This document shows, one piece after another, positions 17,008-22,518 of a DNA stretch of 64,000 nucleotides. This stretch comes from Hyphomonadaceae bacterium (GTDB taxonomy: Bacteria > Pseudomonadota > Alphaproteobacteria > Caulobacterales > Hyphomonadaceae), in the NCBI GenBank assembly GCA_022844475.1, contig JALHLR010000009.1:1-64000 (forward strand), written 5' to 3'. Numbering within the stretch: position 1 is the stretch's first letter; each line of letters opens with the position of its first letter. The notes below the pieces were generated by a model. That model was not told the DNA's origin and did no database searches. It saw nothing but the letters and a program-made list of their open reading frames with translations. The translations under genes and the position numbers were made by a program.

Positions 17008-17294
17008 AGGGAGCCGTTTCTCCCCCAGGCGCGATGCATCTGAGGACAAGGTGCGTAACGAAGACGGCAGCCTCTGATTTGCGTTGGCGAGGCGAGCCCA
17101 TGCGCCGCAAGCTGGCTCTGCTCGCAATTCCCTGCCCGTGCCTGCCTCGGCGCACCGGCGCGGCAGGCAGCGTCTCACCATGCCTGCGATTAAAAAACCT
17201 GCTTCCGCAATCTCGCTAACGATCCCGCGCGCCGCCTGTGAAACCACGATTTTCCCTTGCAGCGCAGACCTTCGCGCACGCCGGCGCCGCACGC

Positions 17295-17320
17295 CCGTTA
17301 ACGTTCAAGTCTCTTAACGG
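17295..17320. promoter_or_regulatory. Inverted repeat upstream of parA-like gene
   Basis: CCGTTAA (17295-17301) - 12 nt - TTAACGG (17314-17320), ~115 bp before ATG 17437. Confidence 0.4.
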
Positions 17321-17436
17321 CGACCGGCGAAATCACCGCATCAACCTAAGTCTGCGTCAAAACGGCAGGGCGAGGCTGGTCATGTCCCGAGCCGCGCTCC
17401 TTGTCGCCGGATGGGATCAAGGGCCGGGAGTTGGAC

Positions 17437-18450
17437 ATGAACGACGGCGTTCGCGTGCTGGTGTTTGCCTCGCAGAAGGGCGGGTCCGGCAAGACCACGC
17501 TCTCCGGGCACATCGCCGTCGAGGCGGAGCGAAGGGGCGATGGGCCCGTCGCCCTTATCGACACTGATCCGCAGGGCTCACTGGCCAAATGGTGGAACGC
17601 ACGCGCAGCTTCAACGCCCGCCTTCGCCCAAGCCTCGCTCGAGGAACTCGACGCCTGTCTCAATCATCTGAAGTCGATCGGCTTCAAGCTGATCGTCATA
17701 GACACGCCGCCAGCCGTCACCCAGACGATCGCCCACGTTGTCCAGCGCGCCGATCTTGTCGTCGTGCCTACGCGCCCCAGCCCGCATGATCTCCGCGCCG
17801 TCGGCCCGACCGTCGACATTGCCGACACGCTCAACAAGCCACTCGTCTTTGTCGTCAACTCCGCTACCGCGCGTGCGCGCATCACCTCTGAGACGGCTGT
17901 CGCGCTGTCCCAGCATGGCGTCGTCGCCCCGGTGACGCTGCATCACCGCGTGGACTTCGCAGCCTCCATGATCGACGGCCGCACGGTCGGCGATATCCAG
18001 CCCGAATCCCGCTCGGCCCAGGAAGTCTCGCAGCTCTGGCTGTTCCTTCGCGGCCGACTCGCCAAGCTGTATGGGGGAACAGACGCACGCTGGGCCGAGA
18101 AGCCCCGCGCCGATTTCTCAACTGCCGTACTCACGCCGGAAACTCCGCTGCTCCCGGCCGCCGCCCTGTCTGACGACGAGGACGATGGCTGGGATGCGGA
18201 TCTTCCCACCTGGGCCAGCATCGCGATCGCCAACGCCACGGCCGTCGCGCCGCCGGTCGAGCGTCGCGCTGCCGGCGGACAGCCAAGGGCTGCACCGCCA
18301 CAGCAGATGCGTCGCGCCGATACCGACTTGCTCACGGTCCAGCGGCCCGAGGCGAGCCAGCTTGAGCGTCGCCGGTCCGACCGTGGGCCGCCCCCCGGTC
18401 AGCCTGACCGCCGGCAGCCGCGAAGCTTCGGCCGTCGTCCCACGCACTGA
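17437..18450 (+). CDS. ParA/MinD-family ATPase (orphan partition/positioning ATPase)
   Basis: VLVFASQKGGSGKTTLSGHIAVEAER (deviant Walker A), ALIDTDPQGSLAKWW, LIVIDTPPAVT; Pro/Arg-rich C-terminal tail. Confidence 0.9.
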   Translation: MNDGVRVLVFASQKGGSGKTTLSGHIAVEAERRGDGPVALIDTDPQGSLAKWWNARAASTPAFAQASLEELDACLNHLKSIGFKLIVIDTPPAVTQTIAHVVQRADLVVVPTRPSPHDLRAVGPTVDIADTLNKPLVFVVNSATARARITSETAVALSQHGVVAPVTLHHRVDFAASMIDGRTVGDIQPESRSAQEVSQLWLFLRGRLAKLYGGTDARWAEKPRADFSTAVLTPETPLLPAAALSDDEDDGWDADLPTWASIAIANATAVAPPVERRAAGGQPRAAPPQQMRRADTDLLTVQRPEASQLERRRSDRGPPPGQPDRRQPRSFGRRPTH

Positions 18451-18462
18451 GGGCAAAGCGCG

Positions 18463-19032
18463 ATGACCGCACCACAGTATGCATCGCTCACCGCCGGCCT
18501 GCTCGCCCGCAAGGGCGAAGCCGCGCCGTCGAAGGAGCCAAGCTTCGGCCACCGTCCATGGCAGCCGCCGGTAGGGCCCGTTCCCGCACCGACCCAGCCG
18601 CAGCCACAACGCATTGCGCCGCCGCAAGTCGTCTCGCCCGATGTTCCCAGGGCGCCTGATGCTCTGAAGGCGAAGGTCCGCCTGAACGATGTCTCGGCTG
18701 CCTGGCCTGCGCCGAGACATTCGCCATTGCCGCCTTCTGAAGATGCCGGTTGGGTGCCGAACAAGCCGCAGCAGGCACTTGCGCTTGGCAGTCTGGGCGT
18801 TCCCTTTAAGACGACGATCCGCTTGACGCACGCCCAGGCAAGGGCGGTCAAGCTTGCAGCGCTTATCCTCGACAAGCCGCAGCAGGACATCCTGACGGCT
18901 GGGCTGATCGAGCGGCTGGAAGCGCTGGCTTGTGCTGACCTCGCCAAGTGCTCATGCTTCAAGGCGGTGATCGAGGGATTGCGCACGCCGGAGCAAGCTG
19001 CGCCGGTGGAAGAACCGGCGCTCGCCTACTAG
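18463..19032 (+). CDS. Putative ParA partner: Pro-rich linker with C-terminal RHH-like domain
   Basis: 189 aa, 12 nt after parA; N-terminal SLTAGLLARKG, Pro-rich middle, C-terminal FKTTIRLTHAQARAVKLAALILDKPQQDILTAGLIERLEAL. Confidence 0.65.
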   Translation: MTAPQYASLTAGLLARKGEAAPSKEPSFGHRPWQPPVGPVPAPTQPQPQRIAPPQVVSPDVPRAPDALKAKVRLNDVSAAWPAPRHSPLPPSEDAGWVPNKPQQALALGSLGVPFKTTIRLTHAQARAVKLAALILDKPQQDILTAGLIERLEALACADLAKCSCFKAVIEGLRTPEQAAPVEEPALAY

Positions 19033-19892: not shown

Positions 19893-22301
19893 CTAGCCCG
19901 TCTGGACCGTTGCGCCACAAGCCTCGCAGACGGCAACGCCGTCATCCGGGCGCAGCGTAAAGTGCCCGCAAGTCGGACAGGCGTCGGACAGGTAGTCCGG
20001 GCTTCTTTGCGGCGCGATCGCAGGTCCTTCGGCGGTTTCCAGCCGCTCCGCCACGCGCCGCGCCGTGAACGGTACGATGTTGTCGGGCATCACGCCGCGG
20101 CTGAAGCCCTTGGAGATCAGCTGCTCCGGCCGAACCGGCTGCACCGCAACCGTCGGCTCTTCGCCTTCGTTCGCGCCGCCGCCGAGCCCGTCATGGCTGA
20201 GATTGTCAACCTCAGCCAGATCGTCGCGGCCAAGGTAGGACACCGCGAGCTCGCGAAAAATGTAATCGAGGATCGATGTCGCCTTGCGAATCGAGTCGTT
20301 GCCGGTGACTTCGCCCGCCGGCTCGAACCGGGTGAAGACGAAGGCATCGACGAATTCCTCCAGCGGCACGCCATATTGCAGGCCGATCGAGATCGCGATG
20401 GCGAAGTTGTTCATCAGCGACCGGAAGGCGGCACCTTCCTTGTGCATGTCGATGAAGATCTCGCCAAGCTCGCCATCATCGAACTCGCCGGTATGCAGGT
20501 AGACCTTGTGGCCGCCTACGGTCGCCTTCTGGATGTACCCCTTGCGGCGATCCGGCAGCCGGCGACGCTCGGCAATGTAGACTTCATCGTGCTCCAGGAC
20601 AGGCGCGACTGGTGCTGGTGGGGCGTGCCGTTCGAACGTGGGCGCCTGCGTATCGGCATGCAGCGGCGCGCGGGCGCGTCGCTTGGCTTCCGAGATGCGC
20701 TGCTGCAGCTCCGAGTCGACAGCGGGGCGCCCCGCATCAATCCGCACGCCGAGCCCAGCGGCCATGGCTGCCCGCACCGAGGCATGCACGGTCATCCGCA
20801 TCGTGTCCGACTGCTCGCCGGTCGCGATGGTGATCACCGGCTGGCGGAAAAGGTGAGGGGCGACCGCCCTGGCCAGCCGCACGCGCGCCTCGGGCGTCAC
20901 GCCGTCTGACCGGGCGAGGATCTTCGCCAGCGGAGATTTCGGGTTCGAAACCGGCCGCCGGCGGCCCTGCACAGCCACCCGCGCCTCATCGATCTCGCGA
21001 GCCGAAATGCCCAGAGCCCGCAACAGGCTTTCGCCGTCGGTGTCGTACGCTTCCGGGTTAAGCCCCAGCCGCTTGCGGATAACCTCGTCGCCAACCACCC
21101 AGCGCGAGAAGGCTGCAGCAAGGCTCAGGCCTTCCTTCAATGCCTGTTCGATGCGGTCCAGCGCATCCTCCGGCATGCCGCGCGATTCAAGGCGATGCCG
21201 TTCCAGCCCGTCGATCTGGTCCAGCGTACGCGCGCCCAGAATGCGTAGCCGCACGTCCTGCGCCTCATCTTTGGAGGCCGCGCTGGTCAGCGCCGCCGAA
21301 ACGCATTGTGAAAGCTCCGGCGTCTGCTCGTCCTCGTGCGCCAGCAGGAGATCCACCGGGTCCGCCCCGCAGCTTTCGGCCGACAGCCACTGAATGCTAG
21401 CGGGTGAGAGATGATCGACAGTCAGGTTCGCTCCGGATGCGCGCGCCGCTGCGCAGATCTTTTCCGCAGCCGCCACGCCCGCCTCGGAGTCGTAGGCCAT
21501 GCCCTGGGACATCACCGCCGCCGCGAGCCCGGCCAGATGCACCGAGCATCCCGGCAGCATCGTCGAAATCGCAATCAGGTCCGTTGTCAGGAGCGGCAGG
21601 TCGCCTGTCGCCGCATAGCGCGCGACGTTGACCGCTACCGCTGGCGCGCTCGCATCTGAAGCCCCGCCGCCAATCCCGATGCGCACTGCCAGCCGTGTCC
21701 GGCTCACGCGTTCGATGGCCGACGCTACCTCGCCCGCTTCGATACCTGTCCACGCCGGGAGAACATAGGACTGCCGACCTGGCTCGCGCGCGCCCGTCGC
21801 TTGCCGCCGCAGGGTGATCGCTGCCGCACGCGGCCCGCCCGGCGTGCACAGTGCGATCTCGACCAGCTCCGCATCCGCCCCGGCCCGGAACGCATCGATC
21901 AGGGCGGACGTCGTCGGCCGCCCCTGGTCGTCCGTCTCGATGGTCAACGCCTCAAGGGCATCAGCCACTGCCACGAAGGCCTGCGTCGCCACGGCCCGCG
22001 CGGACGCGAGCGCCGTCGCGTCCGCAATTGCGGGCAGGAGCTGTCCCGGCTCGATCGCCGTCGCCGCACCCGCCTCGACCAGGCTGGCAGGCGCGATCGG
22101 CGTCACCCGGCGCGTCCGCACCGCTTCGCAGACCGCCTCGGCAGCCTCGCTTTCGCCTCCCAACGTCCGGATCGCGGCCAGGTGCGCATTGACCATCCGG
22201 GCCGGCGCCGTCTCGGCGTCGCCCTGGTCCAGCAGCGCCGCGCCCGTCTCCAGCACGCGGGCAAGGTGGCGGACAGACGACTTGGTTCGGGATTCGCCCA
22301 T
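19893..22301 (-). CDS. Degenerate class II ribonucleotide reductase-like protein (TSCPD domain, NrdJ paralogue, probably non-catalytic)
   Basis: ~803 aa from ATG at 22301. C-terminus [121 protein letters not shown]...CPTCGHFTL...CEACGATV matches NrdJ C-termini; catalytic-core motifs not found. Confidence 0.8.
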
Positions 22302-22518
22302 GGCATGCCTCCGCTGGCCGGCGCCCCGAGATTGAGGGGCCGAACCCGAATCGGACACATGATGAAGTGCTTCGGCCTTGCCTGCACACAGGAATTTGTC
22401 GCATAGCCGCGGTTCCGGGCCTGCTGGACCGGTTTGCATGAAGCCTTTATCTGGGGGGCGCCTTATTCGCGCCGCGCCAATCGTTCCTATCTATGCGCGA
22501 GTCCCAACGGGAGCCGAG

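Follow-up and report, generated by a model that had tools for sequence, protein, structure and literature searches.

The question raised by this locus is what a ParA-type ATPase does beside a partner that is not ParB. The window, by which we mean the whole stretch of 64,000 nucleotides analysed here, lies on contig C9 of a 3.17 Mb draft genome (78% complete). No parB was found near the parA/partner cassette. ParB_N (PF02195) matches of the genome fall on contigs C7 and C25, and the ParB on C7 adjoins a ParA of its own as a canonical ParAB pair; the cassette is therefore additional to the standard ParAB system of this genome. Its gene context is chromosomal, with aspS upstream both here and in a distant member of the genus (L083). 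The first-pass annotation had described a chromosomal ParA-type ATPase away from any parB, followed 12 nt later by a 189-aa protein, and our results agree with it. The features concerned are the following.

17295-17320, forward strand: CCGTTAA-N12-TTAACGG, exact, a candidate regulatory site ending 116 nt before the parA ATG
17437-18450, forward strand: parA (ATG at 17437, stop ending at 18450), 337 aa, a 215-aa ParF-like core plus a low-complexity tail of ~120 aa
17470-17499, forward strand: deviant Walker A motif SQKGGSGKTT, signature lysine present
17767-17805, forward strand: PTRPSPHDLRAVG element, counterpart of the ParF proline-rich segment/helix alpha-5 (Ser108, Asp111)
18079-18447, forward strand: C-terminal ParA tail of DRR/ERR repeats with an FGRR end (18427-18438), low pLDDT in the model
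18463-19032, forward strand: partner gene (ATG at 18463, stop ending at 19032), 189 aa
18481-18522, forward strand: N-terminal motif ASLTAGLLARKGEA (partner residues 7-20), the presumed ParA-contacting/activating tag
18529-18798, forward strand: proline-rich linker (residues 23-112)
18799-18933, forward strand: ribbon-helix-helix (RHH) domain, with a putative strand (113-121) and helices 123-136 and 140-157

Further along the window, an 848-aa protein is encoded on the reverse strand at 19893-22439. It combines a TSCPD domain with a zinc-ribbon-like CPTC...CEAC at its C-terminus and resembles a portion of a B12-dependent ribonucleotide reductase; L083 has a similar gene downstream of its cassette. 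Neighbour gene calls around the orthologous loci are rough.

The ATPase and its tagged partner

Pfam and NCBIfam place the window ParA in the ParA superfamily (PF13614, 44.9 bits). The NCBIfam equivalog NF041546, 'ParA family partition ATPase', scores 159.1 bits, below its curated cut-off of 180. When a profile of 35 aligned orthologues (A1) was compared with the PDB, the only near-full-length matches were ParF (4dzz) and the TP228 ParA (5u1g), at 78.8 bits; Soj, MipZ and McdA gave 30-44 bits over partial stretches only. The protein falls outside the MipZ family, since the best stretch of PF09140 covers profile positions 2-54 of 262 and the MipZ PDB match (34 bits) is confined to the P-loop part. 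The P-loop begins at ParA residue 12 and is invariant or nearly so in A1. Within the PTRPSPHDLRAVG element P109, R111-D116, R118, A119 and G121 are invariant in the same alignment. In ParF, the ParG tail docks beside Ser108 and Asp111, at the proline-rich segment and helix alpha-5 (PMC7308502; docking also PMC5393062).

The partner consists of a conserved tag, a long linker and a small folded domain. The tag, with consensus [FY]ASL-x2-GLLARKGEAxPA, is nearly invariant and the remainder of the protein diverges: R16, K17, G18 and A20 are the same in all 60 aligned partners, in which mean column identity is just 19%. No second LLARKG protein was found in the genome, where the partner carries the sole exact LLARKGxA-type site, and a relaxed tag pattern using AGR arginine codons only was likewise empty. 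The N-tail, including R16-K17, is modelled by AlphaFold2 at low confidence and as disordered, and the 90-residue linker (23% Pro) has pLDDT of about 60-73. The two C-terminal helices are predicted at pLDDT of about 90-96. Their nearest folds in Foldseek are the RHH proteins CopASO, CopG, AmrZ and TacA, at E >= 0.3 for what is a small domain. The window partner alone matches no Pfam or other family. The partner-family profile, however, matches the solved structures of ORF E73 (5e-4) and ParG (1p94, E 0.01), and many family members match RHH Pfams, ParG among them weakly. The short basic N-terminal motif, the proline-rich linker of ~90 residues and the RHH C-terminus reported in the first pass were thus all recovered. 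Just past the RHH helices (window 18934-18990) lies a CxC pair (KCSCF), which recurs in 52 of 120 partners and is possibly a metal or redox site.

Distribution, plasmid relatives and upstream DNA

In the genus, 12 of 15 genomes have both ParA and partner and the rest have neither; the closest sister species has a ParA 98% and a partner 93% identical. The order includes Maricaulis and Marinicaulis, as judged by partner sequences shared between L042/L093 and Marinicaulis flavus and between L030/L086 and Maricaulis parjimensis, so the genome belongs to a Caulobacterales-type alphaproteobacterium. The other sampled genera of the same family lack the ParA. Among 150 sampled genomes of the order, 38 have it at E <= 1e-30. 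Orthology is clear (E <= 1e-84) for 32 of them, which belong to two other families (f4, f5) and the genus itself. The remaining six are distant relatives in family f3, where three loci (L173-L175) carry another ParA-RHH cassette, distinguished by a separate tag at the N-terminus, MAKAPSLAARLAAVAAQP, and by a ParA about 38% identical. Sampling 337 alphaproteobacterial genomes gave about 60 orthologue places at about 48-69% identity, with frequent presence among sampled Sphingomonadaceae; orthologues at 55-70% identity are spread over the class. A second ParA population at 31-42% identity is separate from these orthologues and was kept as its own group; several of its members have untagged, other RHH partners. 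All 26 matches at E <= 1e-45 in a sample of 399 genomes from the phylum belong to Alphaproteobacteria, with none in other classes.

Conserved adjacency, on which the first-pass reading depended, was borne out by this co-presence and by the position of the tag, which is no more than 260 nt from the end of parA in 141 of the 147 orthologous loci with enough downstream sequence. Random stretches match the tag about 2% of the time, true sites among them. Of the six exceptions, three have a partner whose tag is a variant (AGMLARKGEA, AGMLVRKGDA). In one genome (G011) the ParA copy (L024, at C2:182878) has an internal stop and a partner (L015) lies at the end of contig C7, so that this split copy is either decayed or an assembly artefact. 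Distance to dnaA varies widely among complete genomes, which rules out an origin-linked location.

Plasmids of Comamonas, Deefgea, Methylomonas, Xanthomonas and E. coli encode ParA homologues about 55-63% identical, and mostly carry them beside resolvase and/or replication genes. Their partners adjoin parA and consist of a tag and an RHH domain in 80-115 aa. The tag reads SLSAGLIAKKGQAVPA, ASLTSGLVAKKGQAAPA and ATLSSGLVARKGAAVP on the plasmids of Comamonas, Deefgea and Methylomonas, and is degenerate (DLSGLVATKGAAAPV) on Xanthomonas pAG1 and the E. coli plasmid. Because small beta- and gammaproteobacterial plasmids have the same pair, the chromosomal module is an ancient relative of the type Ib systems that partition plasmids. 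In the ParA trees the clades of chromosomal sequences are consistent with taxon and largely track taxonomy. Two plasmid sequences are placed outside the chromosomal clades and three near a clade that contains SPOR-type loci (described below), a placement indicating that exchange between plasmids and chromosomes has occurred. Its direction was likely, if not provably, from plasmid to chromosome.

The first pass had also noted an inverted repeat upstream of parA. The repeat is present exactly as reported, with one match in the window (0.02 expected) and one exact match in the genome, but the outer CCG arm is missing from all genomes except this one and its nearest sister. Most of the genus retains an ATTnACrTTCA...TTAACG arrangement instead, and a conserved operator or centromere in the form of this inverted repeat is not supported. 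TAACG, counted on either strand, occurs four times in 17180-17436 against 0.13 expected from its density in the window. Apart from these scattered blocks, the region upstream of parA showed no conserved array of centromere-like repeats.

A different element occurs in Sphingomonadales, where TTAA-N7-TTAN lies 60-166 nt upstream of parA in 41 of 46 loci (L113-L162) against 0.24 expected from mononucleotide shuffles, an excess inflated by shared ancestry although the spacer sequences differ. The CtrA consensus is TTAA-N7-TTAA (PMC9437464; PMC7200025), and this CtrA-like site suggests that the cassette may be under cell-cycle control in Sphingomonadales. The genus studied here lacks this site, and a CtrA-type box (TTAA-N7-TTAA) was rejected for the window.

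Proposed function and swapped partner domains

We favour, at a probability of roughly 55%, a nucleoid-ParA positioning pair like ParF/ParG, with the N-tail of the partner as ParA activator and its RHH domain as DNA adaptor. ATP-bound ParA would attach to the nucleoid non-specifically. The RHH domain would dimerise the partner and hold a DNA site, either in its own promoter region or elsewhere on the chromosome, or both; a DNA site is the cargo we favour for the RHH type. The flexible LLARKG tail could then span the long linker to reach the cleft of the ParA dimer beside the PSPHD element, where R16 and/or K17 would stimulate ATP hydrolysis, and partner and cargo would be moved or spaced over the nucleoid.

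Several observations favour this assignment. ParF and the TP228 ParA are the only near-full-length structural matches, the partner has the ParG layout of a disordered basic N-tail and an RHH domain, and three of the plasmids bear the same tag and RHH pair. Four tag residues are invariant among otherwise divergent partners, the tag adjoins parA far more often than in random stretches, and the ParA clades largely track taxonomy. The type Ib-like reading of the first-pass annotation is supported. On the opposite side are the lack of a conserved upstream repeat array, the variable dnaA distance and the missed NF041546 cut-off. A fused single-chain prediction of ParA and partner also left the tag undocked (pLDDT about 40); it contained a single ParA copy, and the ParG site needs a dimer. 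Finally, DNA cargo is not obligatory, because some partners on the same ParA clade carry a different C-terminal domain.

The usual C-terminus is RHH, but it is HTH-like in one locus pair and a transmembrane (TM) segment plus SPOR domain in nine loci (L074, L187, L189, L191, L193, L195, L197, L198 and L199), all of which keep an LLxRKG-type tag. These nine come from genomes of five family groups and share one ParA clade with RHH types. Their hydrophobic segment has a mean hydropathy of 1.96-2.71 over 19 residues, and the SPOR domain exceeds the Pfam cut-off, at 30-55 bits, in the eight that were scanned (all except L199, a close copy of L191). In the HTH-like pair, L111 has a weak HTH_17 match below the cut-off and its homologue L072 has no Pfam match of its own; replacement of RHH by such a domain is consistent with DNA binding as the selected function there. 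The ParA tree requires two changes for SPOR and one for HTH. An FGRR-like ParA end accompanies 46 of 53 RHH-type, 2 of 2 HTH-type, 0 of 9 SPOR-type and 0 of 5 plasmid ParAs, counts that are not phylogenetically independent. This tail perhaps contacts DNA or the partner. Repeated DRR/ERR units with a terminal FGRR are also seen in the ParA tails of L021-L060.

This swap of the partner C-terminal domain on one ParA clade is new here. It implies that possible cargo is wider than DNA, and the first-pass reading was incomplete because the module is class-wide and the partner domain replaceable. We propose, tentatively and at rather less than even odds, a class-wide ParA platform with swappable adaptors, in which the LLARKG tag is joined to RHH/HTH or TM-SPOR domains and the system could position chromosomal DNA or division-site envelope proteins, depending on the lineage, and sometimes both in one cell.

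A rival reading, which we regard as unlikely, is that the main or ancestral job of the module in the class is to tie septal or envelope complexes to a gradient of ParA on the nucleoid. SPOR types would do so directly, with the tag in the cytoplasm, a TM helix and the SPOR domain on septal glycan; in RHH types the RHH domain would mainly dimerise and autoregulate, and the linker or neighbouring SPOR proteins would supply cargo. Besides the nine SPOR-type loci on the shared ParA clade, this is consistent with the examined Sphingomonadales, in which the RHH cassette is flanked by Sel1-SPOR (divergent) and TPR-SPOR (downstream) genes at these positions.

L156, 4891-5826, reverse strand: SPOR-domain gene by the RHH cassette
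L156, 7330-8709, forward strand: SPOR-domain gene by the RHH cassette
L118, 7198-8535, forward strand: SPOR-domain gene by the RHH cassette

However, only the RHH type was seen in the genus of the window, with no SPOR gene adjoining the cassette, and FGRR tails are confined to RHH and HTH types. Genomes with the SPOR type often retain an RHH-type copy as well (G402, G186 and G299), which suggests separate jobs.

Less probable again is a transcriptional regulator pair, in which the RHH protein would repress its own operon and other genes, with ParA as a mere modulator and nothing being positioned. RHH proteins are mostly repressors, and conserved blocks do occur in the upstream region. ParG also represses its own operon (PMC7308502). 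The tag, however, survives loss of the DNA-binding domain in the SPOR type, which points to ParA contact as the constant function, and ParA shows no variation at the residues of its ParG-docking element. That the cassette is a captured plasmid-maintenance relic, whose chromosomal role would stop at incompatibility or the stabilising of related plasmids, is very improbable: plasmids do bear the same cassette, but its distribution is class-wide and mostly vertical, its sequences are strongly constrained between sister species, its aspS-side position is kept in L083 and it is frequent among the sampled Sphingomonadaceae.

Many ParA/MinD ATPases are 'orphans' with partners too diverse to recognise (PMC10241942), and here a partner family is defined across a whole bacterial class by an 8-residue tag. 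The plasmid relatives suggest the mechanism, and the natural swaps distinguish the constant part (ParA contact) from the varying part (cargo). If correct, the proposal would give type Ib partition a counterpart on the chromosome and would offer a candidate for a direct link between nucleoid and division septum. A literature search, to which subscription papers were mostly inaccessible, returned no experimental study of this cassette.

Comparison with known systems

The chromosomal ParABS system and MipZ of Alphaproteobacteria share the Walker-type ATPase fold with the window ParA. The cassette differs from ParABS in having no adjacent ParB-type CTPase partner, ParB adjoining a different ParA on C7, and from MipZ in that the MipZ profile matches the P-loop part only. 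Closer in concept are Rhodobacter PpfA/TlpT (PpfA being likened by description) and carboxysome McdA/McdB, in which a ParA-type ATPase is paired with a non-ParB partner that has an activating tail and confers cargo specificity. Their cargo, in contrast, is a chemoreceptor cluster or a carboxysome. McdA gives a weak, partial profile match to the window ParA, and neither in the window nor in L083 do carboxysome or other organelle genes adjoin the cassette.

The cassettes of pZM22-2 (Comamonas), Deefgea piscis unnamed2 and Methylomonas sp. AM2-LC unnamed2 resemble ours in ParA sequence, N-terminal tag, RHH domain and gene adjacency, and that of Xanthomonas pAG1 is a degenerate version of the same ParA-RHH pair. 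Unlike the chromosomal form, these small-plasmid cassettes sit beside rep/resolvase genes and have shorter partners and a ParA without the FGRR tail.

ParF/ParG of TP228 (4dzz, 5u1g, 1p94) likewise has a small ParA core without an N-terminal HTH, the KGGSGKT motif, a conserved S/P/D element at the ParG-docking helix and a directly downstream partner with a disordered basic N-tail and a C-terminal RHH domain. By contrast, the cassette described here is chromosomal and class-wide rather than borne by a low-copy plasmid, its ParA has the extra C-terminal tail, and its partner carries LLARKG in place of the ParG sequence, followed by a linker of ~90 aa. No parH-like repeat array was found here, and the partner domain can be exchanged for TM-SPOR. 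A plain ParFG label would not suit the cassette, because it is chromosomal, has no centromere array that can be recognised and can accommodate a domain for cargo other than DNA.
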